From positions 1,428,501-1,492,500 of the forward strand of contig OZ017801.1 in the NCBI GenBank assembly GCA_963969395.1: 64,000 bases of DNA. Direction: 5' to 3'. How positions within the stretch are numbered: the first letter of the stretch is position 1; each line of letters begins with the position of its first letter. The notes under the pieces were generated by a model. That model searched no databases and had not been told where the DNA came from. It worked only from the letters and a program-made list of their open reading frames with translations. The translations under genes were made by a program, and so were the position numbers. This document shows positions 1,291 through 45,400 of the stretch, in pieces. This DNA is from Pseudoscleropodium purum (Eukaryota; Streptophyta; Bryopsida; Hypnales; Brachytheciaceae).

Positions 1291-2200
1291 GCGATTAGTG
1301 TTGCGTTGTCAAATTTGGATTGCACCTTGTGGTGCTAATGAATTTCATAGCATGCATTGGTTGGAAATAGCATGTCTTGAATCACAATAAGAGGGCAAGG
1401 AAAATCTTTCCTCCTCAAATTTATAGAAATTTTGTTTTTCATAATTTCTATGTCCAAAATTACATAATCCTTATCAAATGTATTCTTGGACATGGGAAGA
1501 TCTATCCCTTGATTTTCTAGATGTTGTACTCAGTTTGATTAGCTTAAGTGATTAGAAATGGGTGATCATCTTGATAGTCTTCTCTTAAAACGACCATTTA
1601 AGAGTTGATTGCCTTTCAGGGAAGCTAAACTCTTTGAAACAATTTTCAGAAAATTTTTGTAGAAAGAAAAATGGAATTGGCATGTAATCCAATTCATTTC
1701 ATATTTTCTGGACCTTCATGGAATTAGTTACAAATTTTTTGAAGTGAAAACTCAATGGTCACTAAAAGCAACCACCTCCTCAAATGTACAGTGTTGGTAC
1801 ATTGAAGAAAGCAAAATGTACGTATGTATCCTAATCATTTTTAGAGCACGGGCTCTTTTAGAATAAACCTACTATATTTTATATAGATAGGTGGGTAAAC
1901 ACATCCATTCACACCTTTATATCCGATTCCGTCATCATGTGCCACTAGAATACATTTTAGATAGAAAATTCATGAAGGAGGAGTTAAAGGAAAGGAAATG
2001 GGTGTGTCTACCTTAGAAACTAGACAAATATATGACCATAGAAATTTATTACAAATTTTGTACATATTGAATGTTCCCATATTCAAACCATTTATTCTTG
2101 AATTTTTTATTTTAAACTTTTCATCACATATGAAATCACATCATCCATAAGTCATAAATTTTTATTTTTTTGGTAAAAATTTGAAATTACTAGTATTTGT
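1291..2200. other. AT-rich non-coding DNA
   Basis: Strongly AT-rich with many A and T runs. I see no open frame with protein-like composition, no RNA gene and no clear repeat. Confidence 0.6.
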
Positions 2201-3094
2201 TTAACCGTTGAAGGACTACAAAGACAAAATGTGTCTTCATCAAATTTTTAATGGCAAATTCCTAGTAGGGTGAAACAAATCTCAATATTTTGTAAACTAT
2301 GAACTTGAAGACTAATAAGTTGACATACTTGTTGCATTTTTATATTTTCTAAATTTCAATGTGAGTAGTATACATTTAAAAATTTATTTAGGAAATATAT
2401 TTTAATAGAAAAAGGTAGTAAAATTTTTTTACAATAAAAAGAATAGTAGAGATGCAAAAAACAACATTTTCTTGGACATTTCTAATCTTTATTTTGTACA
2501 AAAACCTATGCCTAGAGGAAAAAATTCAAATTCATATTTTATATTTTTTTTTTAAATACAAGATTCAATCTAGTGTGATTTAGGAATTCAAAAATAATTA
2601 GATCAATTCCAAATTTTTTGAAGATGTTTCAAATCATATGCTAATATTATCAAAAATTGATGCATCTATAAATTTTCTTAAACTTTTTAGGATTTAATTT
2701 GGTCAATTTGGCTTTCTACTCTTGCTTGAAAATGTGTACAAATTTGAGAGAGTTTTTGATTTATTAGTTTTAAAATTAAGAAATACTGCATTTATTTCAA
2801 ATTCTAATACATTTTTTAGGGAAATAAAAAAGAATTATTCATCTTCTTATAATTTTTCTTCTCCCGAAGCTACAAGTTTTTTGCCTATAAAGTTAATCCT
2901 TCAAAATTGTTATAGTCTCAAAATACAATTGTCAATATTTTCCACAATTTATTCCATGCGTGCTAGACAAAAAAATCTTTACTTTTGTATGCTTAAAATT
3001 TAAATTTAAAGCACATTCACATGCAAAAAAATATCAAAGTGAGAAGGTTTATTGAAAACCTTCATTGTCAAAAAGTTAGGCCTTGAGGGGTTAA
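2201..3094. mobile_element. Candidate TTAA-bounded non-autonomous element (~0.9 kb)
   Basis: The segment starts TTAACCGTTGAAGGAC and ends CCTTGAGGGGTTAA, so its ends are imperfect inverted repeats next to TTAA. Its length matches two better copies at 8697-9614 and 53932-54802. TTAA target use with CCC-like ends is the habit of piggyBac-type elements. The inverted repeats are degenerate here and I could not align the interior with the other copies, so this is the weakest of the three. It has no transposase; the open frame at 2722-3003 looks like chance. Confidence 0.4.
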
Positions 3095-6000
3095 GGAAAA
3101 GTGAAGAAAATTCATATCAACCACAAAATTATCTTGAAAAGTCTGAAATTTTTTCTATTAATAGGTGTATATGACAGTGCTATATATCATGGAGTGAAAA
3201 CATTCACTGTGGCTTCTTATAATAAAAAAAAAAGTGGTTATTGTCCTAAAATTCAAATTGCAATAAAATATTCAATTTTATAATTTTGTCAAAATTTGAA
3301 ATTAGAGTGGAAACTAAAATTCTTGTACTTTATTTTATAAGTTGGTCTCAAATTCAAAAAAGATCATTTTTGTGACTCAAACTGGCATCAAGAGCAAGGA
3401 GTTTAAGTTGCTAAAATACACTACATAGGAAACAATGGATCAAGCATCTACTAGTATATACTATATAGAAAAGTCAACTATACCATAGAAAAAGTTTACA
3501 ACAATAGTTTCTTCCAAAAGTGCTCAATGGAGTCTCCCTAAAAAATTTGGATGAAAAAAATTCCTATTTTCTAGAGGTCCTATATATCATCCAAAAGCCT
3601 TTTTTTGGCCTTCTAGGCAATTAAAGGTTAACCTTGAAAGGCCGTGACCTATCACCAAGGTACTTTGCTCAAAGTGATATAATTTATAAACTATTGGCAC
3701 ATTTTCAATTCCATTTCTATTGGAATCTTAGAAGTCATCCATCGGCTACCTTTTAGCCTTATTGTCCTTCCAAGATTAATGTACATGAACTTTAGTTCTC
3801 AATTTAAATAAGTAAATCTAATGACAACCCTTACGTTACTATATTACAATTCAAAACTCATCTTCATTTTAGAATCTAAATCTAAATGTGCCATTTTTTA
3901 TTTATTAATGTGGCACAATTACAAAAGACAAGAATGACTATCCGAAGTTCTGGTTCTAAAATAAAGAAGGGGGAGTGCATACTTATGCAATTAGGAGGGT
4001 GCAATTAAGTGTGTTTATTCTTACCATCTCTTGATGTATGAGGATCTATTATCATAGTTTAAATATCAACACTTAATTAAAAGCTTTAATCCATGAAGGT
4101 CTAAGAAGCTCAATTGTTTTCACTAAAGATATAAGAAGCTCAATTTGGGTCCTTATTTCTTTATTGTTATTTTCCATTAGTTCCTTTATATAGAAATTAT
4201 CCAATTTTTGGAGCATTTCCTAGAGCCCTTTGACTTGAAAAACCATTTGCATCAAAATTTTCTTATATTTGCTAAACCTTGTGTATTTATTTGATGACCA
4301 ATGGTAGAGATTTTGCTTCAAATGGTTTTTTTAGAAACTAATCTTTAATTTTTTTGTCTTTTGTTCTACTTTTTTGTTGTTAATCTCTTATGACAAAGCT
4401 TTAGCTTGACCTATAATGTTTAGGTAGTTTATTAGTTATTCTTTGCTTAATTCTTGATATTTTTTTAGCTTAAATATTAGTGATAGCGAAGCTTTCTACT
4501 CCCTAGTCATATGTAAGGTGATTAATTAACCACCTTTTGTCACCTCTATCAAGTAGATCACCTTCATTTGAGTTAAAATCTTAGTTTTAATCAAATCTTA
4601 GTCAATCAATCAAAATCCCTATGTCATAGAATAATTTGATTACCAATATACAAAAGATTAAAAAGATTAAAATATACAAATTTGAATTGGTCAACTAAAG
4701 CAAAAAAGAAACTATCTAATTAATTTGATTAGGAAAGCTCCAATCAATTTGTTAGGAAAATTTGTTGCTAGTTAGATAAAGGAACCATTCAACCTAGTTA
4801 GAAAAATCTATAGTTAGTCCAGTTAGAGGCTAGCTAGTCAAATAAAGGAAGTATCCAATCATATGGGAATATGAAGTCAAAGAATTATGGTACGTAGCTA
4901 GATTTGAAGGGGTCCACTTAGTTTGTGACAAAAAATAAATTGACCACTACAGGGTTTTTACTATGTTTTCACCAAAAATTCTCCAATATATGTAATGTCA
5001 ACATGAATTTAAGGTTTTGAAGCATCCTTGGATTTTAGAAAATGTCAAGTAGTATAGAAGAAAGTATATAACAATGTATTCATTTTGAGTGGATAAAAGT
5101 GTAGTTTGAAAATGTTTATATCAATGTGCAAATGTTAATACATAAATAGTTTGTAGAAATCTACTCATTCAAAGTGTTTTACCTTTAAAATTTTCAACCA
5201 TTTTGAAGGTGTTTTGGATTTCAATTTTGTAAGTTATAAAGGGTTGAAGCTTAAAGTACAATGAGTCATTTTTAGGCAAAATTCATTAAAGGATCTTATA
5301 GGAAGTTAAGTCCTTAGCATCTCTTTAAATTTTGGTTTCATTCCAAGTCATAGGTTGGAAGATTATAACATATAAGTGAAAGGTACTATAATAAAAATCA
5401 ATGTTTTGAAGTAGTCAAAATTGTGTTTTGACTAGTTCTTTTGGTCACATAACATTTTAAGAAGTTGGCATCCTACTCCCATTCTCAAGGTAACCAAGTT
5501 TCCCACACACAGAAACAAGTCTAACTTTTATTTTTAGGACCAAAAATGAATGAGAAAATGGTCTTGCAACAATGACTACTTCATTATTAAGTTTCAAAAA
5601 TTATGAGAGAAGTTGAAGATTTATCACAAATCTGAAACCAAAATTAAAGATAAAATATGTTAGAGGTAAGGAACACAAGAGAAGACACACAATAGGGGAA
5701 AAAGAAAAGGCAATGCCCTTCTAGGTCTAATCTACTATTGGGTAGCTCATTGAAAAGGGTCATGAATCCATTAGAATTTTAAGCATAATCATTATTCAAC
5801 CACCTATCTTCCATCCCAAAGGTTGAGCCCAACCTTGCTAATACCAGGTGGTATAATTTAGACTCTACCTATCCATGAACACATGTCACTTTATCATTGG
5901 CTAGAGTTTCTTTAAGCTTTAGAAATTTTTATAAATTCAATAGTGACTTTTCTTCTAAATTTGAAAACTCTATTAGATAGCTAACTTGATTTTCTTGAGA

Positions 6001-7262: not shown

Positions 7263-7764
7263 GATCTAATTGTTCCAATTCCTTCTTTATCAAATGAATT
7301 AGCGACCTCCATTTCCTAACTCACTTCCATCTCCTCTTGGATTTTGAGTAGTTTATGTTTTTCTCATTTGTGAGACCATGTTGTAGTTCTTTAGCACCTA
7401 GAGGTTTAACTCTTAAAGGACAAAGGGGTGTTCACAAAAATATTAGTTTCTATTACCATGTGAATTTTTGGCTTAAAAATTTGCAAAAGCACTCATTGAA
7501 AGTCAAGCTATTGTAGGAGACCTTCCTTTTTGACAACAAAATGCCACTCATGAATAGTTGAACTTTTGCCCTATTACAAGAATCGTTTGTCATCTATAAG
7601 ATGCCAAACGTCCTTGTCAACATTTAAGGGTTAAACTTCTTCTTTGCAAATTTGTGAAAAATTTCAGAAAATAGTATGGTACAACCTAAGTAATAGCCCC
7701 CAAATTATCCTTTTCCCCTGCAACTGATGCTTTCACTTCCCACCATGGGTGTCCAAATTCATAT

Positions 7765-11932: not shown

Positions 11933-13004
11933 AAAAATACTTCAAAAATTCAAAATTTGATAATCGAATAGGCATTCTACATGCCTTTATAAGGATTATA
12001 AGAAGACTATTGTAGTCATGTAGAATTTAAATCAAACATAAATAAAGGATTCATCGACAAATTTTTTCAATTTATATGACTTGTACCTAAATAATGAGTG
12101 CTATATTTGGTGTATCTTGAAGCAATGAGAGCCTAAGTATGATGATATGAATTGGAGAATATACATCAATAATGAATCATAGGTTTTTTTCTTAATTGTT
12201 TAAAAAAAGGTTGATTGAACCTATTGGTTATAGAATTGACTTTAAATAATTTTAACACTTTAGAACTACATTTTTGCACTATAAAAGCTACTTGATTGAA
12301 TGATTGTCAATTCTAATGCAAAGAACAAAAATGGAAAACAAATATTGTATTTTTGCTTAAAATTAAAAGATCTTATCGTAAAATACATTTGATGCAACTA
12401 TATTGAATTTTTTCAAAAAATTCAACACCGTAGATTGCAAAATATTAGTTATTGAAGTAAAACAGCAAGTTCATTTAGCACAATTTCTATAGATTATACT
12501 ATTTTATTTTACCCTTGAAGGATCTCAAACCTCTTTGCGGCCGTATAATATATGATGATTTTGATGGTATTTAATAAAAAAACAATCACCAATTTTTTTA
12601 ATAAAATATATATTAATGTTTGTGATAGTATGTAAAAATTATATATCACATTGCATATATTAAACCACAATTGAAGAATTACAAGGCTAAATATGGATTG
12701 TGTAAAGGGACCGAAAGGGCCTTTCAAGGGTTAACCTCTAATGACCCAAGTAACAATTTTCTAGTGTTGCCATTCATTTTTCAGCTACTCTTTCTCAAAT
12801 TTTGATTTTTTTGAATATTTCTTTTAAGAAAATAATATTTTTAAATTATTAAAAAAAATAAAAATAAATGTATTTCAAGTAAATTTTGCTAAAAATCTCC
12901 TCAAAAGTCAATACTTATAATCTTATATTTAAAACTATACTTAAAAACTCACCTAAAAATACTCCTTTTCCTTGTAGTGATTATAAAAACCTCTATAATA
13001 ACTG
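11933..13004. other. AT-rich non-coding DNA left of the giant element
   Basis: No gene is seen. A small candidate hairpin element lies at about 12508-12734, starting CCCTTGAAGG and ending CCTTTCAAGGGTTAA, but only the right side has a full TTAA. The text near 12433 (ATTGCAAAATATTAG) resembles text near 27290 (ATTGCAAGATATTAG), so part of this is a dispersed repeat. Confidence 0.5.
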
Positions 13005-13008
13005 ATAT
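13005..13008. repeat. ATAT flank, candidate target-site duplication (left)
   Basis: ATAT directly outside the left terminal repeat, matched by ATAT at 26288-26291. The word is self-complementary, so it cannot be told from an outward extension of the inverted repeat. Confidence 0.5.
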
Positions 13009-13038
13009 TTAACTAATTATGGACAAATCCATAGTCCA
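13009..13038 (+). repeat. Left terminal inverted repeat of the giant element
   Basis: Reads TTAACTAATTATGGACAA followed by ATCCATAGTCCA. The first copy of the internal palindrome starts only a few bases further in, at 13045. Confidence 0.75.
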
Positions 13039-13634
13039 GAAATATATCGGCCGTCAGCCGATATAGTCGAATGCATAGATTTGTGTGTCATAAGCAATGA
13101 ACAGAAATAGACGCAACCACTAAACAAACCAAAGTACCACAACACATGGCAAGTTATTGAATTCAGAGCCTACAATTAGTAGTTAAATGAATAATTTCAT
13201 AAGCTCCTATGCTGTGTCCAAATTTGGAACAAAGTATCGGCTGGTGCCTGATACTGCCAACCGATTCCTAACATCATTCTCTAAAGCACCTAGATCTATG
13301 AAAGTGTTTGCACTGCGTAAACTATGAAAATCGACTATGGTAGCCATCTGTAAGATGAAGAGCAACGAATGCTCCTCCTTAAACCCTAAACCCTGAGTCC
13401 ATCCGATCCAACTGAATTGCTCGTATCAGCTGGCAGCCGATATCCCCCCTAGAAAACTCCAGAGAACAGGTCTTGAAGTGAAGAGGCAGTCGATTCGATA
13501 ATACTAGCGTTGACAATAAAGCAGTTCAAATTTGTGAATAAGGTAAAGGGGACGAGATTGGAAGGTATTCAAGCCCCCCCCCCGATTCCACTCTGCAAGG
13601 GTATCGGTTGGCGGCCGACACCATGTAGGGCAAA

Positions 13635-14285
13635 TCACCAAAATATCCCATTCCAGTTTGGCTTCTCGTACTTGATTGACTGTGCAACCTCATAGTGTAA
13701 TTGTCCCGGTCTAATTGCGCCTTTCATGTATTCGGAGACTGACTCATGCTCGTGCATGGGATAAATGAATGGAATAATATCTGTTGAAATGTTCGGAATA
13801 ACTCTACTAATATTCGGGAAATTGAGATCCCCCGTAAATGGTAGCGGAATATAGCACACCGGATCCGGCGTCCTCCTGAGCGAAAGCGGGCACACATTGA
13901 CCATGAGCACTTGGTCCGTGAAGCATGTCATCCTGGATGGTCTCTTAGTGTGAAGTATTGAGAGCATTTTGTAGTACCATGGGAAATTTTGGCTATCTAC
14001 ACAATATTCTCTGCCATAAACGAACGCTAGGTTGTCTCTGACATGTTTTGGAAGCAAGTGCGCAAGCAGAGGCCTAAGATCCACTATTGGCATCCTGGAC
14101 CAAATTCCTACGTGGAACTTTTCAAACAGTGTCATGAACATTGCAACTAGCCCTGGCCTTTTAATGACATTTCTGTGCGGGTCCGACTTGTCCACCGCGA
14201 TATTCGGGTCGAGATAACAAAGTAGTCCCGTGACGCATAGAACGACACATTTCTTGAACGACTGTGGATGGCTCACGTTGGACTT
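13635..14285 (-). pseudogene. FCP1/HAD-phosphatase-like domain without catalytic residues (second copy)
   Basis: The exon starts after a good acceptor (TTCTGTTCAG at 14288-14286) and runs to a TGA at 13635. The layout follows FCP1-homology phosphatases: a beta strand KKCVVLCVTGLL where the family has the DxDxT nucleophile motif, then RPGLVAMFMTLFEKFHVGIWSRM like the family's RPG...F...WS region, then a degenerate C-terminal half. Both key aspartates are replaced (C and T), so phosphatase activity is not expected. The upstream exon is not identified; palindrome copies at 14360 and 13602 flank the exon. It resembles the domain at 14737-15608 and may be a diverged duplicate or the last exon of the same gene. 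Whether it is still expressed is unknown, so pseudogene is a cautious label. Confidence 0.55.
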
Positions 14286-14736
14286 CTGAACAGAACATGA
14301 GTTAGTAGGCACAAGATTATACAACATCAACATCCACTGAAAGAAGACAAGCCAGTTGATATCGGCTGGCAGCCGATACTGCGGCCTGACACAAGACAGC
14401 AGCCAATAATTCATATTGAGAAACAAACAAAAGGTGCTAGATAGATTGTGTACAGATGAGTGAATGCCTGCACCTACATTATTGCGATCACTTGATTAGA
14501 ATGACCAAGACCTAATGCTGAAACTCTCAAAGGAAACATTTGAATGCTTTGAGAATGAGTGTCCCATGCGCAAGCTTTAGGAAAAATCGGACTGAAATGC
14601 CTTCATTACAAGAAAATTGATTAATCAATACAAAAGAAAATAATGTACACAAAAGATGTAGTCTCTAGACGTCCTCCTTTATCTACAGAGAATATATACA
14701 ATCTACAGAAATATGTGTCGGTTGGCATCCGATACA

Positions 14737-17700
14737 CTACGCCTCCTCCATTAGGACCCGTGGGCTAGGAATTCCCATGGCCTGCAGCTCCTCCAGTGAA
14801 TATGGCACCTCGAATCCCTTTTGATATGGCGGTGTTACATTCACGAACTGATTATGAAGAGGAGAGCCCGGCATACAGCGTGCACTCCCAACTGAAGAGT
14901 TCTTTTGACAGAACTCTGGGACCGTGAGTCCCGAAGACAAAAACTGTTCAATGAACGGGATGAGCTTCGCCGGGAGATAAGGCAGTTTTCCACCCTTCAG
15001 CGAACCCTCCGAATACATAGTAACCGGGGGTGGATGAATCGCACTATATGGCTGATTCAAAACGTTCCGATAGGGCTCGTGATCCACGATCAATGAGTTG
15101 CTGATCGTGGCCCCATTATCGTACAAGGAGGATGACCCGAGAATCCTTGCGAGACGCTTCAGAAAAATTGGTCGTGTGGGATTCTGAGGGTCTCGATAAG
15201 CACTCTCATCACAGTACTCCTGTCCAAAAGCCAGGTAATCGTCTCCGATATCCGGCGCCATCCATTTCAGGTTATGAAGACGCTGCTCAAGAGTCTTCTT
15301 GGGTAAATGCGACCAATAAACGATCTGAATGTCCTGACCCTTACAAAACCTGATAAACTCTTGAAGACCTGGTCGAGGTCTTACTTGCGACCTCTGATGC
15401 ATACTTTTCCCTTTAAAAATAAGGGGCTCATAGAAGAGCAGAGTTCCCTGAACCTCAAGGAAAAGAAACAACTTCGGAGTCGCTACCTGAGACGGGCCAA
15501 CTCTAGACGTGTTCCCTGTCCTTTCTTCTAGAGCTGGTTTGTCACACTCCTGCCCACCTTCAGACGTGGTGGCGGGGAATTTCTCAGAAGTTTTGGAGTC
15601 ATCATCTGCATTGCAAAACGAAATACATAGAGCATGAGAAGCAATGAACTTGGGTACATGACAAAACATTCGTGCACCGTATCGGCTGGCAGCCGACACA
15701 GTCCAGATGTACTCTAGTCTGTCGAGATGAAGGCTCCTACTGACAAGTCTACGCACAAGTCTGAGCCAGGCAGTGCTACGTATACAAGAGCTATTTTAGA
15801 TACTCCACAAACATCGCGGAGCATGTCTATCGCCTACGAACCTCCAATCTGAGCCCGCCTCTGAGATCGAGCGGGAGACATCGCTTCATTTGGGAAGTCC
15901 TGTTCCCGCGCCACCGCGCCACCGTCTTCCTCGTCACTCGGTTGTTTCCGCTTTTGTTGAACCCGAGTTGACCTCCGCGAGTCCGCCGACTCCAATTCCT
16001 TTTCGAGCGTGGCCCCTTTGCTTCTTCCCCGTCGTGGTTCAGGCGGGGAAACCACCATGGGTGTCGGCTGGCAGCCGATACTAATGTCAGCTGCAGTAGC
16101 TGGGCGGCCCATTGCAGTGACTCCCACTTGAGGCTCTGTCGCAGGACTGACCACTGGAGCCTGTGGAATCCTGCAAATCTCCTCTGACGGTGGCTGAACG
16201 TGCAAGTCCACGACCATTGCGACCAATGAATTTTCCGGTCGGAGCATCCCGTGCGGCTCCGAATTTGGAGCCGGGGGGAGATTGAGAGAACGCCGCGGAG
16301 ATGAAGGACTTCATTGCCGCTGCCTTCGAATGAGTGTCTCTTCCGGGGTGCCATCACTGTCTGAGTCAATCAGAAACGTCTGAATTTCTGGTCGCTCCTG
16401 AGATTGACCCTGCGGCCGTCTCCGCGTCGCCGCGCCACCGGGAGTCTCTGTCAGATTGAGGGTCGAGATTGGCCGCGGTTGCTGATGTGATGCCGCAAGC
16501 GACACTTGCCTCGATCCGCTTGCGCCCCCCCGGTCTGTCAGCGCAGGCGTCCCCGAAGAAGGTCCCAAGGAAGCCGAGGAGACGAGGTTCATTCCCCTCA
16601 CACGTTCCGTGGCCTTCTGCAATCCGTCCTCCTCCCGAACGAACTCCATGACGGCCCGCCCATTCCTCTGCGAACCCATGGAGTACAAGTGAGTAACATG
16701 TTGTATCGGTTGGCAGCCGACAGGATTTCACTTCCTCTGAACAATGCAAATGTGAGGAAGGGATAAGAAAACTTACCAGAGCGATCTCCGTGATGTTCCC
16801 GCCCCCCCAGATGTTGCTGACGGTGGCATCCTTGGATTTTAGGGTCGGCATCATCAGTTTCTGTAGAAGTCCATGACCAACCCCGCACATCCCGCCATTC
16901 CAATCGACCTCGCCCTCAACATCGACATTGAACCAGTTGGGCGCCTTGTTGATCCCAGTGAAGCGCTTGAAGACCGGGAAAATACTGGACCTGTCCTCGG
17001 GCTTCGGGAAGGTCAAGGACAGAGTGACCAAAGGCATGGATTCAATCTCCGCCTTCTGAAAGCCTCCACCGGGAGATGGTTGATAGTACACCGAATGGTA
17101 TTACCAGGAGGACGAGGACGAGTACGAGGCCGTCGCGACAGAATCTCGGAAACGCGAGTTCCTGATAAGGAGCATTGGCAGGGGGATGTACGCTTCGGTG
17201 TCTTCGATATTCGGACCGTCCACCTCAGGGATTTCAGCGGCCAATGCTAAATCGAGCAGATCGTTCTTGTTCACTGGAATCGGTTCCCCCATATCCGTAT
17301 ATCCAAAGAGGACAATGAATTTTTTGTCCTCGGGTTCCAGCGCCATATTCCCCTTCGATTGACGGACGAAGTCGACCACCTCAGGAATACTCTCTCCGAC
17401 ATAGCATTCGTATTTCAGGTCGGCGGACTTCCCACGCGTCGGAGGCATTTCGACTTTGGCGTAGTTCGCCAACGTCGTGAAGAAGACCCCCGGCGCCTTG
17501 CCATCCTTCGACTTGTCCGTCGTTGGATTCATAGGGTTCACTCGCCCCTTCAACCAGTTGTTGGCATCCGTGAACTTCATCATGTCCTTCCAGATGTTTC
17601 GGACTACGGCCACTGAGTACCCCTCCTTTTTAGCAACTCCATCCAATCCTCGTCAGTATATGGGGTCCAATTGTAGTCCTTGCAGGGAAGGGGATGCTTC

Positions 17701-19629
17701 TTCCTGGTCCACATGATCTCGTTCATGACGATCCTGTCCAGCTTTTTGTCCTTGCACCAGTCGAAGAGAGTGATCTTCCCCGAGGACTTGGCCTTCGCGG
17801 TGTTCTTGATGTTCACGCGAAGTGCAACGATCTCCCGCCCTAGCTCGCACAAATCCGAATCCCGAAGCCCCAGCGTTGGCATGAGATCCGTTTTGGTGAT
17901 GTGAGTGAGCGGCTTCCGATTGACGAGGAGATTCGGCACAGTCCCATCATCTCCAATAAGCTCCCCGTTCTCCCACGCATCGAAGACCTCCGTCCATAGC
18001 ACCCAGGTGGTCTCCTTGATGAAGATGAGGGGCAACTTGGAGGACACCTTCTCATCCACGAAGTGCGCCATCACCTTCAGCTTCGCAGCCTGGAGGAGTT
18101 CCACCGCAATGTTTAGAACATGCGAGAATGGTATCAGCTGCGAGCCGATACATAATATATTAATCAAAAGGGAGAAAAAAATAAAGGTGCGTGGGAATTA
18201 CCTCAAATGCTGCTGACGGCTTTCCACCTCCAGGATGCGGCTTTGGGCACCCCACCTACACCCACGCCGCTCTTCCCATCTCTGCACAGGATCTGAAGGT
18301 CTCCTTTGCCACTTTCTCCGCGATGTTGAGATTGAGGGCATTGGAGACTCTGACGAGTGTCCGGGTCTCTACTGAATACCGGAATGACCTCGAACTCTAG
18401 GAGGTCGGTTTTGGCTTCAAAGCCGTCCGGATATTGCTCGGCCAATTCTCGACAGGCCGTCACTATGTGTTGCCCACCAATGATATACCAGTGGACATTT
18501 GGCGCCTTCCACCACGGCATTGAGATGCTGTCGACAACAACAGTCTGTTCCTTCCCGGGACACTCGTCCATCATGGCGTCTAGCCCTTTGTTCGTTGGCA
18601 GTGGAGCCTACTTCAGAGGAATCCCATGGATTTTCGGCTTCTTCCTGATGGACCCGTATCCCTTGTACATAGTCTTCACCTGAATTGAGAGAAGGCCAAA
18701 ATATTAAGGACCAGCTACAGATGTCGGCTGCCAGCTGATACATTATATGGGAAGATAAAAACCAGTAAAGGATGGAAGTGATCGTCGAATTACCTGGCCA
18801 AGTCGGTCCTTTGCAATCTTCCGGTACTTCAACTCGTCCGGTGCAATGTGGAATTTGTCCGAGTGAATGACCCCCGGAAGACGCTGCTTTTTGTAAGGAA
18901 ACGCGTGCAGGAGCCCCGTTTCCAACGCGTGGTAAATAGCGTTCACCTCGTTCTCCTTCGTCTTGGTTGTGAGATGATTTCCACGCCGGAGTGCCTCGTC
19001 GAGTGTCAGCTTCAGCGGCTTGTTGGGGTCGTCCCTGGCCTTCGCTTTTCTCTTCGGTTTGCTGGGCAACCCGGTCTCCTGCAGATCAGTAGCAGCGACT
19101 TCAGTCACTCTCGCCGCCACTTGCTTCCTCGTCGAGGGTACCTTTTTCTTCCCCTTTTCCAACTCACGAGCGATGAACGCATTGTGTTCATCGCACTCTA
19201 TCTTCAAGCACTCCCAGCCCTAGATGAGCTCCTCTGCACTAGACGGCGTGTTTCTCTCGAACGTCATGCCCATCGACATTGACTTCTCTCCACAGACCTC
19301 CTCCGTGCACTTGTTCACTGGCAACTCCACCGCAAAATAATCGGCAACTCCATCCGTGCTTCCTAGTGGCATCAAGCATATCATGACGTGCACGGAATCG
19401 CCAACAACCATGACAGACAGTACACTTCCTTTGCCAGGGGTCATGTTCCCTTTCAGCTTGAAGGAGCATACGATCTCCACTATTGTGTTGGGTAACTGCC
19501 TCCAACACAAACCCCATTCTTGGATGGCCTCGATCGCTCGCCATGTTGCCCTCGGTGGATACCCGTCTCCCAATATCTGAGAGTTTGGGATTTGCTCACC
19601 CAGAAGGCGGGCCAAGAGAGTCGGTTTCC
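14737..19629 (-). pseudogene. Long cargo gene: possible ParB-like segment, disordered linker, FCP1-like domain
   Basis: Read leftward. Exon 1 is about 19629-18794, after acceptor TTCTGTAG, with a TAG at 19220-19222. Exon 2 is about 18679-18202, with a TAG at 18608 and a frame change near 18380; it holds WYIIGGQHIVTACRELA, which recalls the GxxHR motif of ParB/sulfiredoxin-like domains. Exon 3 is about 18140-16777, with a frame change in an A run near 17625 and TAA at 17101; its TDEDW and WLKGRVNPMNP stretches are unrecognised. Exon 4 is about 16675-15842: an S/P/R/Q-rich, probably disordered linker with a frame change near 16310. Exon 5 is 15608-14737: an FCP1-like domain with FLFLEVQGTLLF, RPRPGLQEFIRF, VYWSHLP and SLIVDHEPYRNV, whose DxDxT is replaced by ExQxT. 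Exon 4 joins exon 5 in phase (AQIG-DDDSK). Introns carry the palindromes. Joining these into one gene is inference. Confidence 0.5.
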
Positions 19630-19917
19630 TACAGAACAATACAATTGAATTCTCAGTACACTCACACTATGCACCTTCACTTTGTGCATCCACTGTATCG
19701 GCTGGCAGCCGATACAACCTCTCAGTCCCTAAACCCTACCGTCGGAAGACATTTCTAGAAATTCCTAAGTCGGTTTTCTACAGAACAATACAATTGAGTT
19801 CTCAATACACTCACACTATGCACCTTCACTTTGTGCATCCATTGTATCGGCTGCCAGCCGATACAACCTCTCAGTCCCTAAACCCTACCGTTGGAAGACA
19901 TTTCTAGAAATTCCTAA
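19620..19917. repeat. 149-bp tandem duplication containing an exon boundary and a palindrome
   Basis: Two near-identical 149-bp units, starting GTCGGTTTCCTACAGAAC and GTCGGTTTTCTACAGAAC. Each has the minus-strand splice acceptor of the cargo gene's first recognised exon and one palindrome. The palindromes differ at the centre: GCTGGCAGC in the first, GCTGCCAGC in the second. Confidence 0.9.
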
Positions 19918-20329
19918 GTCAACCGTCCCGAGATCATATCGGCTGCCAGCCGACATAGCTTAAGCTCAGGCTCCTAGTGAGTGCTGCAATGTATGTCGGC
20001 TGCCAGCCGATATAGCAAGTAATAGGTGCCTCAGAATCTCAATGGCTATCCTATATGATATAGCAAATGACAATGTATCAGCTGGCAGCCGATACATGTA
20101 GTGAAAAATACCTCTCAGTCGCCAAATCGGAGAACGCCATCGCCAATGGACTTTGTTGCTTATCGGCTGCTAAAGATGACTTGTCGGCTGTTGAAAAAAC
20201 ACGCTTGCCTCGCTCTCCTTCACTGTCGGCTGGCCAGAAATGCGTATCGGCTGCGCTAGGATGTATCGGCTGTTGCTTTGCTTTGCGAGGGGATGTCAGC
20301 TGCAAGCCGGACTGAAGGAGGGAGAATGG

Positions 20330-20392
20330 CAGAGTGAGAGTGAGTGAGGCTGAGAGTGAGTGAGAGTGAGTGACAGAGAGAGAGCAGGAGAC
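20330..20392. repeat. GAGTGA-type microsatellite
   Basis: Imperfect GAGTGA / GAGAGA run in the spacer between the divergent genes. Confidence 0.8.
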
Positions 20393-21424
20393 ACAAATGG
20401 CAAATGAGAGAAAATGAAAGTGGCCAGGGGTGTATACCTTCTAAACCCTCGGCTGCCAGCCGATAGGCGCAATCATGACAAACCGAGTCCATTCTTCCAT
20501 AAATTTCATCCATCGCAGGTTTTCATCCGTTAGCATGTACTCCACATCCAGCAAATTACATGGAAGTTACGAACACTCATTGCAGAGATGCGTACGTTTC
20601 CCAACACGATCTCCTGATGCACGGACTTGTCTCTCTTGCAATCACCACAACTTCATCCTCTTCCAGATTCAAATTTCAGGCGCCAAATTCAGTTTCAGGC
20701 TTGCTCACCTAGGACCAGATCTTGGAGGACTTCCATTTTCATTTTCATTTGCCCCACACACGCACTCAGAGCGTCTAAGAACCGTCAAGGAATTGCAGTG
20801 GCTTGTTGTGGAATGTTTATGAGGGATGCAACGTGACAGGGAATTCAGTAGACCTCTGTTCAATGCAGCATTGAGTAGTCTCCGGGTTCAGGAAGCGCTC
20901 TTCGACAGTTGTTATTTGGCGTTTAGGCTTACGTAGGATTTGTAGTGGGATTTGAATTGCTCCAAGCTCCGGATGGAATTGCAGTAGGATTCTAATTGCA
21001 GTAGTAGTCAGGAGCATTCTCGGAAATTAGTTGCCTGACAGAGGTTCAGGATTTCCTATTCGGTTGCACATGTGTTTCCATTTCATTATTTTTACTGGTC
21101 AGAGCATCTGTGGACAATGCCTAGATCATAGAAAGTGCAAAATCTAGCTTCGTGCATGATCCCCAAAGTTCTAGCTGTATAGTCCTGCCTCTGTGCTTTG
21201 CCGTACGGACAGTGGTATCGGCTGTCAGCCGATACCAATTTCTGTACCAGGAAGGTCGTGAAGCACCAGGTACACAGACGTATCGGCTGCCAACTGATAC
21301 CAATTTCTGTACCAGGAAGGTCGTGAAGCACCAGGTACACAAACGTATCGGTTGCCAGCCGATAAGATCATCATGGGTCTAACAGAGATTCCAACATTGT
21401 GGGTTCTGACTCCAATTTCAAATC
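20393..21424. promoter_or_regulatory. Divergent spacer, likely start region for both transposon genes
   Basis: The leftward cargo gene and the rightward transposase gene point away from this spacer. It includes broken palindrome halves just to the left, palindromes at 20447, 21216, 21281 and 21346, and a 65-66 bp tandem repeat. Short minus-strand frames such as 20817-21017 could be a first exon of the cargo gene, but I see no proof. No clear TATA box was identified. Confidence 0.35.
21216..21364. repeat. 65-bp tandem repeat carrying three palindromes
   Basis: The palindrome plus CCAATTTCTGTACCAGGAAG... is repeated twice, followed by a third palindrome (starts 21216, 21281, 21346). The spacer itself forms an inverted repeat, TGTACC...AGGTACA. 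Confidence 0.85.
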
Positions 21425-24400
21425 ATGAGTGGATTTGATGACTGGACATCGGGTGCAAATCCTATTGAGGCATTCACGAAAAATAGAGGCTCGGGAAGAC
21501 TGAAAATGCAAAAGGGAGTTGTTGTGGCTCTTACACTGGAAGGATTATACTACTCCGGAAGGGCGGTCGTAGAAAGGGTGGTGAGCCGCGATCCCTACCT
21601 CATACGCGTTCATGTCCTAGACGTTCCAAATAACCTCGATATGCCTCTTCCGTTTCCTGAGGGAGACATGGTGTTCTTGCGACACTGCCCGGGAAGGTCA
21701 ATCGTGTGGGAGGCAGAGAACATCTATCCCCATGCAGAGTCTGAAGGGTCTTCTTCTGCTGGTGTCAGCCGGCAGCTGATACAAGTGGTCACAGATGAAA
21801 AACCCATACAACAATTCCTGTCACTCACTGTCAATATGGATGTCTCACTACTGCAGACTGTGGGCACGGATCTGCTATATGCTGGTGTAGGTACAATTGT
21901 ACAATGCTCTCCGAAAGGTTACTGGGAAGGCTTTCGCGTTCCACACAGCTTCTTCCTCGTTGTGAAGATATTGCACGTCGTCGATGATTTCCAGGATCAG
22001 AGTGCTTATTGCGAGATTCCTAAATTCATGACACTCAAACGCTATGTTGGATTCAAAATACTTTGGAGTGGTTATAAGGTCAGACCAATCGAGACCTCCG
22101 TCCCAATAACCAAGGTTGTCGGCTGCCAGCCGACAGGAGAACCTGCGACCCACTTCATGCAGGCTCAAGTCGATGGTAACTACGAGAGTGGTGGGAGTTC
22201 GAACGATGTACAGGTAGAATTATGTGATCCGGGAACACAGCGACTACTTCCTACTGCATCAGATGAAGACGAGCGAGATGATAGGCTCTATTCGTCCGAC
22301 GATGACAGCCGCGGGTCTGCAGAGGATCACCGCGATGTTCATGGTTACAGTACCTCTGGCACTGCCGTGTCCGACACAAGTGTTGCTGACAGCATGGATC
22401 ATTCGGACGCGTTTAGAGCTGATACTCAAAGTGGAGATAATGGCCATCCGGATGGAATGCAAGCTGGGCTTCCAATCCCAGATAGACCACTCTGGAGAAA
22501 TCACTATTGTGAACTTCTCAATGACGACTTCTCGGTTCTCGGAAGAGCCATGATCCAAGTCTGCCTACCAGATGAGGCCTGCGATGATGGCGTCTTGGGT
22601 GACACGTATGTCGGGGTCATGTTCGTATCAGACAATGACGAACTACAAATGACAACCATGCGCTGGAGGCTCACACACACAAGGTTGGAGGGTGGAAGGC
22701 TACTATCTGAAATTGTCACGCTCTGCTCAGAGGTTGCTCTATTGAATGAGTCGGACGATAACGGAATGCAGGGGGTACCGAGGAATAAATACCGCTCTGT
22801 GCGCAGAAGGGTGATTCCCAAGGATCACGAAAGCCAATCCAGGCTGCAAATGAAGACCTCGGAGACGGAGGTACGTAAGGTCAGCTCACAAAAGTGTTGT
22901 AAGCTCAGATGCTACCAGACGTTTCCCTGGGAGGACATGAGGTCTATACGACGAAAGTTCTTCGCTTGCACATTCGAGAGTAGGAGGGAGGTAGCGTATG
23001 CGGTGTAGAGTCAGCTTCATGTAGGGGTTATTCCAGGAAAAAAATTCATTACTCTTGCAAATACAGACGTCTGCGAGAACGCATGGTATATCATTCACGG
23101 GGTATCGAGGTCGGCCTATCATGTTTACAAGGCTGCAGCCGTGGGAGGATCCGTTAACGGCTCGCATGGAAATGCGGGGGCCCGACGGCCACGGCCACAA
23201 ACAATCCAAGCTCAAGCAACCCTCAAAACGATCTTCGACGACAATGCCAACAAAATGCCAAACGAGTTCAGAATGGTTGGAAATAAACGCGTCGACAATC
23301 TCAAGGTCCTCCCCTCTGCAATGAATTGGAATCACATGCGCGAACAAGTCAATTATGTAAGTCCATCATCTGCCTCTTCGTCTACAGTAGAAAAGTCCTT
23401 TTATCGGCTGCCAGCCGATACAATCATGTTTGGACTTTGAATGTAGAAGCCATTGATCTTTCCTTTCTATAGGCCGTCATTTGCAGTTATGTCGGCTGCC
23501 AGCCGATACAACTCTATAGTCTTCCATGGAAACTCATCCATAAAGTCATGTTCTTCAGGTCAATGGAATATGCAATATGAAGCTGGTCTCGCAGTCTGCT
23601 ATCAGCCGCCTTCGGAATGCTCATTTCAAAAATGTAGAGGTCAAGGCCGTAGGGAGCAATTTCTCAAAATGCACAGAATGTGACTTCCTGGTAGAGTTCA
23701 TTGCAAAGTATCCAAGAGGTTGTGATGAGTGGCAGGCCCTGGTCGACGACAGAGAGAGACATCCCAATTACCAGCGCGCTTGTAGAAATGTATACAGTGG
23801 ATGGACCGCGCAGTCGGTGCAAAATCCATCAGAGTTCCTCTGCATTATTCATGACAAAATGGACACCACAAAGACTGCCATTCCGAGGATGCAGCGCATC
23901 ACCAAGGCCACCGCAGGGCTAGGGCAAATACCAATCTCGTGTACTGGAATGCTCACATATGGACATGGAGATGGCGCGTATGCACATTACTCCACATCAC
24001 TCTGGCCTGGGGATTCAAATTTCACAATTTCGTCCATCTACAGGGTCCTCAAGGCCCTAGAACTACCACCTGTTCGGGAGTCCAAGATCCTCTTTTCGAC
24101 TCCACCGCTAAACACCTTCTTCGAGGCTCTGCTTCATGGGAAATCGAGATGCAACTCGTCAATCCCGCAGGCCTCAGACATGGTGATCGACGCAGCAAGA
24201 CCAGGACGACCTCAGGTCCCACTTCCAAGGAAACTGTTCTTGCAACTCGACAATTCAGCAAAGGACAACAAAAATTGATTCCTCATGGCTTTCTGCTCAC
24301 TGCCAGGCGCATATTCAAGGAAGTTTCAGTGGGGTTCCTTATTGTCGGGCATACGCACGAGGACATTGATGCGCACTTCAGTTATCTCTCGAAACTTATC

Positions 24401-25570
24401 AAAAGGAAGAACACATACGTACTTGCGGATCTCATGAAGGCGTTCATGGATTCACAAAAGACTGTAGCCTTCATTCCGGAGTTCGTGCAAGAAGTGGCGG
24501 ACTTCAAATCATACTTCAAGGGCTTCCATCATGATGGGGTGAACAAAATCATCGGGCTCGGAGATAAACACCTCTTCAAGTTCTACGTCGTGGAGGATGG
24601 TGTGGATCGTGGATGGCCAGTCATGAGGTACAAGCTCACGGCCACAGATTCTTCGTGGCTGCCTCCTGGCGCACCTGTCAAAATGTGGACAGCGGACAAA
24701 AATGGACAACCCAATATTCCACAAGGGGACCCTCGACCTGTGCCTTTCAAGGCACTCTGGGGGAATGTGGACATTAATACCAGAAGGCGAAATGCAGAAA
24801 AAGAAGTCGCAAGGGCTATAGAGTGCAATGAGAAACAGACATTCATCAAAAACGGAATAGCAAAGTTCATTGAGTTCTGGAAATCGGGAATGGCCAGAGA
24901 TAGACGGTACGCACAGGAAATGGCAAGCTGTGTGGCTTACTGGGAAAGAATTCAATCGGAGATCAATTCGGCGCTGCCTCAAACTCCTGCATTTCTTCAA
25001 GAAGGATTATGGCCGCTCTCTGACTGGACAAGAGATCACACGTCGACTTTTGTAGACAAGGGGGCAGAGGAGAATTATTCAGTAGACACCACTCCGGAGG
25101 ACGAAGGGGACCCCACTCCATACTACGGACCTGCAAAGGATAGGCCGCGCTTGAGATTCAATCCATTCAGGGATGTTCTGCTCGGAGACTTTGATCTTTG
25201 TCGACCATGTCACAACAATCATCTGCCTGACTGGCTGGAACGGGTACTCCAATGTGTGGACATGTCTCCGGGGCCCACGTATGGTAATTTTAAAATTGAG
25301 TGGTGGACTCCGATGAAAGCCAAGAGGGAGTCAAAAGCGCTCATTGCGAGGGAGAGCTAGACCCGAAGATGGCACAAGGAACTCTGTCTTCCGCAGATGG
25401 TCCATGTCAACATTGTCTTGTACTCGCACAGAATGCCCTCGCACGCAAAGAAAGGACCTCCCACATCTCATGTCATCCCGGAGGCATCCGTTGCTGCTGC
25501 TATTGCGAATCTGGAGGCCGCGGGGGCAGCTTTGGATAGAGATGCAGACAAGGGCGGAGAGGATTACTGA
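21425..25570 (+). pseudogene. Transposase-like DDE gene (DUF7869-type) of the giant element, broken
   Basis: Exon 1 runs from ATG 21425 to 23356, then donor GTAAGT; a 202-bp intron holds two palindromes; exon 2 starts at 23559 after TTCTTCAG and ends at TGA 25568-25570. About 1,310 codons. The N-terminal ~480 residues have an acidic D/S-rich centre. Then come a cysteine-rich KCCKLRC segment, IIHGVSRSAYHVYK, HGNAGARRPRP, a CTECD pair, and three acidic blocks spaced like an RNase H-fold nuclease: IIHDKMDTTKTAIPR, LFLQLDNSAKDNKN and VGHTHEDIDAHFS. This pattern matches, from memory, the uncharacterised DUF7869 family. Breaks: TAG at 23006 and 25358, TGA at 24276, and a frame change near 24295; the frame continues sensibly across both TAGs. 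Two palindromes are read in frame (21763, 22117). Nuclease function is inferred, not shown. Confidence 0.7.
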
Positions 25571-26239
25571 CATATCGCCTCGGACCTATCGGCTGCCAAC
25601 CGATACAATAGTTTAGCTCTGGAGTTGTGTCACCATCAAATTGCTAGACGGATCCAAGTCCTCGCTGCAGGTGTCGATTGCCAGCCGATACTAAGGGCTC
25701 GCTGCATGTCAATCGCATGGTTCTTGAACAGGATGTTTTCACTTCTGGATGATTACATGCATATCCACAATATTTACTCATTTGTGGATGTGCCTTCATA
25801 TCTTTTAGGGTGTGCCTTCATATCTTATAGGTTGTGACTATAAGTCTTATGACTAGTCAGTTTTGACATTTTTAATATGTATCCGTTGGCTGCTGACAAA
25901 TCACATTTATTTGAATCTCCTATAGGGACCATGTTACAACTGTTTTATCTTCAGTGCACAAGCAATTTGCTCATTTCTCTATCTTTCATGTTCGTTGTCT
26001 TGCTTTTGGGTTTTGCGCACTTTACTGTGCTGTCTTATCAGCTGCCAGCCTATATGTCAATGGGCACGGGATGGGTGCACGGTCATAGGCCCCGGTTCTG
26101 CTATTGCATAGAAACCGGTCCAAAATACAACAATCCACTTTTTTTTTGTACCCTCGGTTCTTCTGAACAAGGTGTGGGTGGACTGCCGACACTTTTTAAT
26201 CATTTGAAGCATGTTCTCTACCTTTTTTAATGTGGCTAT
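25571..26239. other. Right non-coding arm of the giant element
   Basis: From the transposase stop to the right terminal repeat. Holds palindromes at 25587, 25672, 25880 (diverged) and 26036, plus a short duplication of CTTCATATCTTNTAGG near 25794-25828. No gene seen; the frame at 25877-26230 overlaps palindromes and lacks motifs. Confidence 0.5.
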
Positions 26240-26287
26240 GGACTATGAATTTGTCCATAATTTGTGCAATTGTCCATAATTAGTTAA
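26240..26287 (-). repeat. Right terminal inverted repeat of the giant element
   Basis: Read inward on the minus strand it is TTAACTAATTATGGACAA, then a second ATTATGGACAA copy, then ATTCATAGTCCA. Apart from the extra ~19 bp it matches the left end with one difference. The duplicated GGACAA part may be a duplicated binding site. Confidence 0.75.
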
Positions 26288-26291
26288 ATAT
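26288..26291. repeat. ATAT flank, candidate target-site duplication (right)
   Basis: Pairs with ATAT at 13005-13008; see the left copy for the ambiguity. Confidence 0.5.
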
Positions 26292-26365
26292 AGGTTTAAT
26301 ATAGGTGTATAGTCTTTTAGGTTCACATGCTCAAATTCCTAGGCTTGCGTAATAGCAACCCTCTA
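26292..26365 (+). repeat. Partial copy of a dispersed repeat cut by the giant element
   Basis: GGTGTATAGTCTTTTAGG followed by ATGCTCAAATTCCTAGG and GTAATAGCAACCCTC matches text near 62140-62215 and 63690-63755. Only the right part is clear, and it begins at the element's edge. The left flank before 13005 has at best weak similarity to the missing part. Confidence 0.65.
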
Positions 26366-42336: not shown

Positions 42337-42453
42337 GCTCAAACCCTAGGTGAATGCACTTAACCTCTTCAGCTTTGATACGGTTTCTTGACAACCCTGT
42401 TCTGCTTGAAATGAGTGCGTTGTTGATGTTGTTCATTGATTTCTGCTTGCAGG

Positions 42454-45400
42454 ATGGGGTTCAAGATTAACTTGTACTTACTCGAGGATGAGACTTCCAT
42501 TCCGGAGCTCATCGGGCCTCTTTTCTGCGAGTCGGCTGTGCGGAACTATCAATCTTTGCGCGTGATGCTTGAAGACGTGGGCGTCGTGGATGGCGCTTTT
42601 GATTTCTGGGATTCCGATTTGAATTGCAAGATTAGGTCAAAGTTGGAGCGCCTCAACCCGATTCGACCTGATGTGCATGTAATTTCTCAATGCGAGGTTG
42701 AGGAGCCCGCAAACAAGCGTTGTTGTGTGGGTGATTCCTCCATCGTTTCTGATTCAATTCCCTCGCCTGCAGTGTATCTTGATTCTAATGAAGTCGATGT
42801 TAAGCCATTGGACCCTGCATGTGATTCGATAGATCCGGCAACTTCCTCTAGGGTCAGTAACGCATCATCTGGAGGTGAGCCGAAACTGGCTTCCTCTCTA
42901 ATTAGTAAGGAAGTGCTGGAATTGTATGCCAAAGCTGAAGCAAAACTGAGGAGAGAGCTGAAAGCCATTTCTCTTGAGGATCATGATTGGCACTTGAAAT
43001 CTTACGATGTTGGCAATGTCGGTGTTGTGAAGGTTTACTGTTCTGAATGCCGTAAGGAATTCGGTGGTAGTCAAGGAAACCACAGTAATGTAATGGTTAA
43101 TAACTTGTTCAGCAATTTTAAGAAAAGCCACATGAAGAGCGAAAATCACATTAAGCATTACTGTCGCAATAAGGGTGTTGCTTGGGATTCTCATCCGCAG
43201 TCGACAGCGGCAAAGGATAAGACTGTCGTACTTACGCCGGAGGATCACACACACTTAGTACAGGAGGGCGTCCTTATTCTCGAGGGTGTCAACACAGCTG
43301 CGAAGTCAAAGAACAAACCATTCATTGTTGTCGGAGACCTTGATCAATCTGATGTTGTGAAGCAGGGTTGACGAATTTCAACGTCCGCCCCAAAATAGCG
43401 TCCGTTTTCTGGACGTCCGGACGCACGGACGCTAGCGGACGCAGCGTCCCGACCGCCGTCGGAAAGCGGACGGGCGGGGCGGACGGCCCGACCGCCTGAG
43501 GCGGACGCCCAGATCGTGCGGACCAGATCAGTCCGCGCGTCAATCGGATGGCCGTAATCGGGCGGACGGACAGGCGGACGAACCAAGCGGACAAGTGGAC
43601 GGGGGACAGGCGGACGCTGCGTCCGCCGGGACGCGAATGTCAACGGACGCTGTGGACACAGCGTCCGCGTCCGGATGTCCTGTCAACCCTGTTGTGAAGA
43701 GCTACTAGTATAAGGCTAAGTGTTCTTATTGCAGCGATTTCTTGGCATTGTGCCCTCCCAAGAAGAACTTGGAGGCCAATCTGCTGAACCATTTGGGAGG
43801 GACCAAACATGCCCTTGCTGTGGAGAAGATGGACTCTACAGCATCGGCCAAATCAGCCCTCATTTCAGGGAAGAAAGGTAGACCAACTCGGTCAGTTTCA
43901 AGTGGCGTTAGCCAACCCTCACTACACTCTTGGTTCAAACATTCTGACTCCGAAGGGCATGTAAGTGAATCTCCAAACCTTGATGAGTCATTTTTTAAGG
44001 CTCTTATGTGTTGGGGTTATTGGAAAGAGAATTGTACGTATGGGCAGAATGTTTACCCCATTAAATCTTTGCTTAATGACCCGCATCCAAGCGGTTGCTG
44101 GTATCCAGAACCTCATGTTCATGCTGTTGTGTCTGCATACGGGTCAGTTTCCATAATCTCAGGAACGTTCAGACATGCTGATTGTAGGAGGTTCAGTGTG
44201 ACGGAGGAACCCTTTGAGAATTTTACTTGTTCCTTGTGTGCTTCCATAACTGTTCAAGATGATTTTAGAAAACGAGTTGTCAGGGAAGAGAAGAGTATAG
44301 AGAAGAGGGGATTGCGGGGGACAGGTGATGGTAGGAGGTTGTCGTATCTTGGTACTGCTAAGCTTGCTTCTCATAGTAGGGTCATCAGAAAGGAATTAAA
44401 GCTTCAGAGGTTGCATTTGGTTGCTGCCAAGGCTAAAATGGTGCAACTAAAAGTGAAAAGGCCGACCTTGAAGGAAAATGCGAAGTTAGCTTGCACTGGC
44501 GGTGATCTGCTAAAATTCTGTAATAATATAATTGCTGCTCATCGAACAGGGTCGTTTGGAGGAAAATCGGCCTTGTGGGACTTCATGAAAGATGTTGCAA
44601 GTAATTTGAATCGTAACAAAAAGGGATTCAGATTTTCTACCAATTCTAAGTCGTTCTATCAGGCCATGAAAATCTATGGTGGGCGCCGAATGTGTGACTT
44701 GTTCAGCCTTAACTATACTGGTCCTTTGTTTTGCACAACTAAACGTGAGAATAAGAAGGGTGTCCAGTTTGTTCCTGGTGTTCAACATCAGATTTTTGTG
44801 GAGGTTGCGAAAATCTATAGGTCTGCCAAGGAGGCTCATAGAATTTCGGGTCCCGTTCCAGTCATCCTTGCTGAGGACGAAACTAAGGTGAAAGCTAGAG
44901 TGATGTGGGACTCACGGTTTGATGTACTGCTGGGCTTTTGTGGGACAAAAGAAGATCATGTTTGCAAGTCGAACTTCAGACCAGTTGTTGGCTCTGGTGA
45001 GGAGGGATACAATGTTGTTGTTGATGCATTTCGATCTAACCAGATGGGGGGCTTTGCCAGGATTGTGGTAGTCAACCCGATGCATGAGAAGTTACCTCGC
45101 CTAGTTTTGGTGGTTTCCTACACTTGTAGCAAATTCAACGCAGAGTGGATCCAGGCTCAATGGGATTCAATCGATGTTGTGTGGGAGTCTGCTGAGTGCA
45201 AGGACATCATTGGGCCGATTATTGGTCATGCTAGTGATGGAGATAGTAGACAGCGTCAACTCATACTGAAAGACTACAAATCAGATGAGGGAAGTTGTTT
45301 ACAGGTACAGTGGGAGGGCTGGTTGTTTTCTGCATCACTCGATGACAACGGTAATGCAAGAGGGCTTCACGACCAGGACTACATACACAACGGGAAGAAA

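Follow-up and report, generated by a model that had tools for sequence, protein, structure and literature searches.

Why does one large transposon of the moss Pseudoscleropodium purum carry the same short palindrome more than two dozen times along its length? The question arises from a 64-kb stretch of DNA (contig OZ017801.1, positions 1,428,501 to 1,492,500; hereafter the window, whose numbering we use throughout), in which a DNA transposon with a transposase gene and a second gene contains repeated matches to the 19-bp motif T[A/G]TCGGCTG-S-CAGCCGA[T/C]A, two 9-bp half-sites separated by a 1-bp centre. From the sequence patterns described below we consider it fairly probable (roughly 60%) that these palindromes represent putative binding sites of an element-encoded protein through which the family would recognise its own DNA, most likely for anti-silencing of the kind known from VANC proteins or for the control of transposition.

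A palindrome specific to one transposon family

With up to five mismatches allowed, the motif occurs at 28 places in the window, all between 13045 and 26054, and at none in the remaining ~50.7 kb; a preliminary description of this DNA had likewise counted about 28 palindromes confined to the element. At up to three mismatches it is found at 25 places (47 strand matches; 13045-26054), compared with 0 in 100 shuffles. The exact half-site TRTCGGCTG is present 38 times inside the element, where a Markov model gives a mean of 0.19 and a maximum of 2, and is absent from the rest of the window. The first site begins 45 bp inside the left end (13000) and the last one ends 242 bp before the right end (26296), distances that had earlier been put at 36 and about 230 bp. 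A majority consensus of 8 full-length copies contains 26 sites, 21 of which are at most one mismatch away from the motif; weak sites at 25880 and 26173, seen as four-mismatch matches in 6/8 and 4/8 copies, were excluded. Site limits are sharp at 19 bp: beyond them only the adjacent base on each side is biased (G in 15/26, C in 17/26), and the flanks of the sites are largely unrelated to one another.

13045..13063, +, palindrome site, left subterminal
13235..13253, -, palindrome site, degenerate
13424..13442, -, palindrome site
13602..13620, -, palindrome site
14360..14378, -, palindrome site
14716..14734, -, palindrome site
15680..15698, -, palindrome site
16062..16080, -, palindrome site, last exon of second gene
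16704..16722, -, palindrome site, intron 4 of second gene
18132..18150, +, palindrome site, intron 3 of second gene, overlapping likely splice acceptor
18722..18740, +, palindrome site, intron 2 of second gene
19696..19714, -, palindrome site, intron 1 of second gene, within 149-bp tandem duplication
19845..19863, +, palindrome site, intron 1 of second gene, second 149-bp unit; in 5/8 copies
19937..19955, +, palindrome site, intron 1 of second gene
19994..20012, +, palindrome site, intron 1 of second gene
20076..20094, -, palindrome site, intron 1 of second gene
20447..20465, +, palindrome site, intergenic
21216..21234, +, palindrome site, 5' of transposase gene, within 65-bp tandem repeat
21281..21299, +, palindrome site, 65-bp tandem repeat
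21346..21364, +, palindrome site, extra 65-bp repeat unit; of the 8 copies only in the window copy and c9
21763..21781, -, palindrome site, exon 1 of transposase gene
22117..22135, +, palindrome site, exon 1 of transposase gene
23402..23420, +, palindrome site, transposase-gene intron
23490..23508, +, palindrome site, transposase-gene intron
25587..25605, +, palindrome site, directly past transposase stop codon
25672..25690, +, palindrome site
25880..25898, -, weak palindrome-like site, 5 mismatches, outside the consensus set
26036..26054, +, palindrome site, right subterminal

The element that holds these sites is delimited by inverted ends and a short target-site duplication (TSD).

13000..26296, no strand assigned, whole DNA transposon, 13,297 bp, ends common to 8 full-length copies
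12996..12999, +, TSD TAAT, left
26297..26300, +, TSD TAAT, right
13000..13038, +, left terminal inverted repeat (TIR), AACTGATATTTAACTAATTATGGACAAATCCATAGTCCA
26239..26296, -, right TIR, inner part duplicated

The inverted ends of the window element read AACTGATATTTAACTAATTATGG.../...CCATAATTAGTTAAATATAGGTT, and the 4-bp TSD is exact in 7/8 full-length copies, with 3/4 bases retained in c9. CACTA elements have CACTA termini and a 3-bp TSD; the window element, with termini AACTGATATTTAAC... and a TSD of 4 bp, does not belong to them. Rfam and tRNA searches of the 64-kb window gave no match. Literature searches, judged from their listings, returned no paper on DUF7869, the Pfam domain of the transposase, and nothing that we recognised as the window element.

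Genome-wide (313,191,705 bp in 52 contigs), the exact core CGGCTGCCAGCCG has 587 + 557 matches (1,144) and a reversed control string 0 + 1. We listed 100 of the 1,144 matches, all on contig C1. Among these 100, 92 lie within aligned copies of the window element and 2 in an extension beside one element cluster, outside the aligned sequence. A rearranged fragment of the element (L033) holds 2 more, and the last 4 are in a copia-like retrotransposon that carries a captured element piece; the motif is not equally common outside the element. The repeat was labelled copia-like by eye from its zinc-knuckle and protease-like segments. It carries a piece of the transposase gene (window ~21734-21804) together with its palindrome, in 1-3 tandem units, directly upstream of a gag-like frame (L031, 1388-1588; L032, 1456-1582; L034, 1483-1540; L035, 1396-1583). 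Since these pieces carry element flanks, they are captures and not insertions of the palindrome alone, and the copia-like family may possibly have stolen a recognition tag in this way. Two single palindrome matches in the whole collection of viral contigs were taken as chance.

Shared positions in mainly non-coding DNA

The alignment of 8 full-length copies leaves out three of 10 clusters (c5, c6 and c7) whose end is missing or rearranged. As many as 205 of the 208 site instances (26 sites in 8 copies) are present at matching alignment positions; the 3 absent instances represent one unit of the 149-bp duplication, and the sole strong site beyond the 26 belongs to an additional 65-bp repeat unit of the window copy and c9. 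Every covered site is also present in 20 loci of ~3.5 kb (140/140 instances over 8 sites), two of which, L037 and L043, are parts of copies c9 and c8 and already belong to the 8-copy set; one four-mismatch match in L050 was omitted as weak. The number of strong sites varies among the 8 copies by tandem duplication only, and positions are inherited, which answers the comparison between copies that the preliminary description had proposed. Neither outcome that it named as refuting its view, a motif as frequent outside the element as inside or positions not shared between copies, was observed.

The 8 copies each diverge from their consensus by 1.8-2.8%, and transitions from C to T or from G to A make up 72-84% of the changes. 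Rates of C-to-T change are high at CG and CHG positions and low at CHH positions, the pattern expected from plant DNA methylation, and both the transposase gene and the second gene are interrupted in every copy by one or more stops or frameshifts. We infer from these sequences that the 8 copies were probably silenced after insertion and that their sites then drifted, in which case the near-perfect consensus motif must derive from an active lineage. As a separate observation, the centre base of the palindrome is flipped between C and G in 4/197 cells of the alignment (sites 16704, 19696, 20076 and 21763) compared with 72/50,567 for other C or G bases (P 2e-4), a ~14-fold excess that looks as if the palindrome occasionally inverts.

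The sites can be placed relative to two genes, for which we drew exon limits by eye from reading frames and splice (GT/AG) signals.

21425..25567, +, transposase gene (Pfam DUF7869), exons ~21425-23355 and 23559-25567; broken in the window copy
15830..20140, -, second gene, encoding the "GQH protein", ~5 exons inferred from frames and splice signals

Under this gene model ~68% of the element is coding, whereas 23 of the 26 consensus sites are non-coding (binomial P 4e-9, with sites treated as independent, although tandem units are not). Three sites are in exons, at most four if 18132, with its likely acceptor overlap, is counted. All five inferred introns, of which the second gene has four and the transposase gene one, hold at least one site, and the widest gaps between sites (2097, 1428 and 1285 bp) are mostly exon. 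This placement departs from the even spread, exons included, that had been described earlier.

A second arrangement of the motif lies beside the proposed start of the second gene.

20161..20302, +, six same-strand half-sites TRTCRGCTG (20161, 20182, 20224, 20245, 20264, 20294), upstream of the proposed second-gene ATG

The half-sites are spaced 21, 42, 21, 19 and 30 bp apart and are retained in the 8 copies, apart from point mutations and the loss of one 21-bp unit from c3. Because the consensus reading frame is open through this array, it may in part be coding.

Encoded proteins and diverged relatives

Two frames of the transposase gene match DUF7869 (E 1e-18, 68 bits, and 8.5e-10, 39 bits; cut-off 26), the only significant Pfam domain of the transposase frames. 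The consensus of the 8 copies retains an in-frame TAG at 23006-23008; the ~527 codons before it may thus encode a protein of their own, unless the gene model lacks a short intron. A Foldseek search of the transposase against PDB gave nothing under E 0.001; its C-terminal part has structural matches to BAH domains, with MazF and other small barrels at barely lower Z. The second gene of the window copy has several in-frame stops and frameshifts, and its exons are open in the 8-copy consensus. Its product, the GQH protein, contains a [G/N]GQH[T/S][V/I]TA-like segment with a strand-like stretch after it; we take this segment to bear a vague resemblance to the ParB/sulfiredoxin and DGQHR motifs.

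Homologues of both proteins come mostly from public contigs. The closest organism-named relatives of the transposase are from Ceratodon purpureus (68-70%) and Physcomitrium patens (65%). The motif is kept in four relatives at 53-73% protein identity: 4 of the 10 nearer homologues contain 12 palindrome-encoded peptides (RLPAD, IGCQPI, SAGSR and variants), which we read by eye as intron read-through, at introns that hold sites in the window too. Such peptides are found neither in the other 6 nearer homologues nor in 56 further transposase relatives. A strict peptide pattern gave 10 matches in 5/60 proteins, including the partial match SAVSR in P0030 and P0031. A looser pattern, drawn up once P0066 and P0004 had been read, matched 12 times in 4/66 proteins. 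The SAVSR matches in P0030 and P0031 were taken as chance (0.15 expected) and are uncounted under the looser pattern.

The genome also holds a more distant relative with a palindrome of its own, L056 (C44:9699500-9709499). L056 has a 957-aa DUF7869 frame, which shares 36% identity across 575 columns with P0004, a protein closely related to the window transposase, and, after this frame, a second gene with the GQH domain INGQHSITA (profile E 3.6e-9, from the frames of two loci). The second protein has sub-threshold Pfam matches to DUF6261 (9.4e-05, under its cut-off) and Peptidase_C3 (0.25). The window palindrome is absent from L056 at up to four mismatches. In its place, TATC[C/A]TTGA-N-TCAA[T/G]GATA is present in 9 copies at up to two mismatches (0 in 200 shuffles), and this motif is absent from the window element at up to three mismatches. 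The two palindromes have equal length, a 1-base centre and the outer bases TATC/GATA in common, and differ in their inner bases. Seven of the L056 sites precede the probable start of the second gene, including the one at 7368, which falls within a mechanical open reading frame (ORF) starting at 7351; the other two lie between the second gene's two frames; five sites form part of a 125-bp tandem array. L056 also has another, unrelated palindrome of 31 bp (TGCACTTCAGCGCGA-S-TCGCGCTGAAGTGCA-like), repeated seven times at 1959-3119, 5' of its transposase frame; the 21-bp core of this second palindrome has 6 matches at up to three mismatches.

DUF7869 has at least 181 matches in this genome, apparently from several families, and some of the frames are long (950-1075 aa), which means that more recently active relatives may exist. 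The window element also holds cargo.

13638..15795, -, one or two cargo reading frames with weak NLI/FCP1-type phosphatase similarity (PF03031)

PF03031 matches 13638-14495 at 7.6e-05, above its gathering score, and 14740-15795 at 0.0031, below it. Elsewhere in the window, three copies of a GC-rich 19-bp palindrome, GGCGGACGCWGCGTCCGCC (~41176, 42094 and 43608), and related GGACGTCC repeats lie around a different repeat region with long frames (42427-47254).

Interpretation and known systems

What, then, could the palindromes be for? We read them as sites with two-fold symmetry to which a DNA-binding protein of the element would bind, and we think it likely that some element-encoded protein does. 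The most likely binder would be the GQH protein, the half-site array being next to the proposed start of its gene. With sites across the non-coding DNA of the element (ends, promoter regions and inferred introns), such a protein could coat its own family alone. The most likely purpose would be to keep this non-coding DNA free of host silencing, in a VANC-like way; the next most likely would be to control transcription or transposition through the same binding, in the manner of TNPA. That anti-silencing is the main purpose is a tentative suggestion by analogy, which we hold to be possible and somewhat short of probable. A protein that reads these sites fits the data best: it accounts for their symmetry, for the array of half-sites, for a conserved motif at fixed positions in non-coding DNA, and for site and protein having changed in step in L056. 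We infer from these patterns that a protein binds, which protein it is and that it acts against silencing. The suggestion in the preliminary description that the palindrome is a working site marking self DNA gains support from the fixed positions, the non-coding bias, the occupied introns, the four homologues and the L056 motif.

Several observations weigh against this interpretation. The non-coding bias would also be expected from selection against insertions in exons. CG change in the sites is 4.2%, compared with 5.9% elsewhere (P 0.04), and CHG change 7.6% compared with 6.6% (P 0.21), in the 8 copies; with mutation rates close to those of their surroundings, the sites show no lasting protection from methylation, although both main genes are broken in all 8 of these copies. 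The GQH protein is without a recognised DNA-binding domain, having insignificant matches only (MelC1, 0.091; best PDB match, 0.33), and its structure model is poor (pLDDT 39.6). The second palindrome set of L056 means that not every palindrome need serve a GQH protein. L056 is also the only distant relative found with a motif of its own, and L057, from a third DUF7869 family, has no second gene or palindromes in the 4 kb alongside, its element limits being undefined.

The sites might alternatively serve a transposase or accessory protein in transposition and autoregulation, as for TNPA, with no role in anti-silencing. Sites near both ends (13045 and 26036) and on either side of the transposase gene (21216-21346 and 25587-25672) would suit this explanation, as would the half-site array beside the proposed second-gene start, but most sites are kilobases from the ends and every inferred intron holds at least one, and we regard a purely TNPA-like role as unlikely. 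An ambitious extension of the self-recognition model is more doubtful still: moss DUF7869 transposons might use a general recognition code with a constant TATC...GATA frame and five variable inner bases (GGCTG or [C/A]TTGA); a GQH protein, co-evolving with the sites and perhaps ParB/sulfiredoxin-like, would read the code, load at palindromes and spread along the element against silencing, and retrotransposons would have stolen the tag to gain the same protection.

We give little credence to each of the remaining explanations. A 19-bp hairpin that multiplies by itself within its host transposon, as the preliminary description had considered, would explain the sharp edges, the largely unrelated flanks, the excess of centre-base flips, as if the unit were invertible, and the entry of a palindrome-bearing piece into a retrotransposon. 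Yet the 8 copies have no strong copy-specific site outside tandem duplications, the retrotransposon pieces have element flanks and are captures, the half-sites form a same-strand array with ~21-bp spacing, and L056 has a different palindrome with the same TATC/GATA outer bases; this makes such a hairpin very unlikely. Slightly less probable is a partition or clamp-loading system of the ParB-parS type captured by the transposon, also raised earlier. Many palindromic sites and the GQH segment with its strand-like stretch recall such a system, but searches of the second protein against Pfam, NCBIfam and PDB sequences gave no ParB match, its shallow profile aligns to phage P1 ParB with an hhalign probability of 0.1%, its structure model is unusable for the comparison, the element frames scanned (a subset) contain no ParA-like match, and an integrated transposon needs no partition. 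A remote relationship of the second protein to ParB may nevertheless exist. We give least weight of all to the palindromes being functionless ballast, shared through recent descent from one element. The copies are indeed only ~1.8-2.8% from their consensus and their sites mutate like the surroundings after insertion; however, the origin of 26 closely similar copies of a 19-mer would need explaining, the motif is retained by relatives at 53-73% protein identity, and L056 has a different motif of the same layout.

Among known systems, Sola DNA transposons have a 4-bp TSD and resemble the window element in this respect. The ParB-parS system has palindromic sites in common with the element, and its protein a vague motif resemblance to the second protein; it differs in that the element shows no sequence or profile match, no ParA among the frames scanned and no replicon. 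TNPA of En/Spm (CACTA) is an element-encoded protein, as is the putative binder here, with repeated short sites near ends and promoter. TNPA-type sites cluster within a few hundred bp of element ends, whereas the window sites are internal and intronic as well, in an element with different ends, a 4-bp TSD and a different transposase.

The closest known system is the VANC/VANDAL pair, by analogy with which anti-silencing is proposed here. VANDALs are transposons of the Mutator type (MULEs), and the window element is not a VANDAL, because its transposase, ends and TSD differ. Arabidopsis VANC is a protein encoded by a transposable element (TE) that binds a 9-base motif in non-coding regions; the motifs grow by tandem duplication, differ between families and also occur in an unrelated TE, AT9TSD1 (PMC5735166, PMC10398659). 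Four likenesses stand out: a short motif (~9 bases) specific to a TE family in intron, intergenic and terminal non-coding DNA; a motif number changed by tandem duplication, here in the 149-bp and 65-bp repeats; diverged motifs in related families, here one relative, L056; and the motif in an unrelated TE, AT9TSD1 there and the copia-like repeat here. The differences lie in the transposase (DUF7869, not Mutator type), in the 4-bp TSD with TIRs, in the site (a 19-bp palindrome of two half-sites), in the candidate protein with its GQH segment, and in the sites being mostly solitary rather than in dense same-strand arrays. If the sites and the protein do match, the element would represent a second, independent transposon family with its own DNA password, outside Mutator and probably in a bryophyte. 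This would test whether motif-specific anti-silencing proteins are a general means of silencing escape for plant DNA transposons and would show how protein-site pairs change; the two palindromes, with common outer and different inner bases, are suited to a direct specificity swap.

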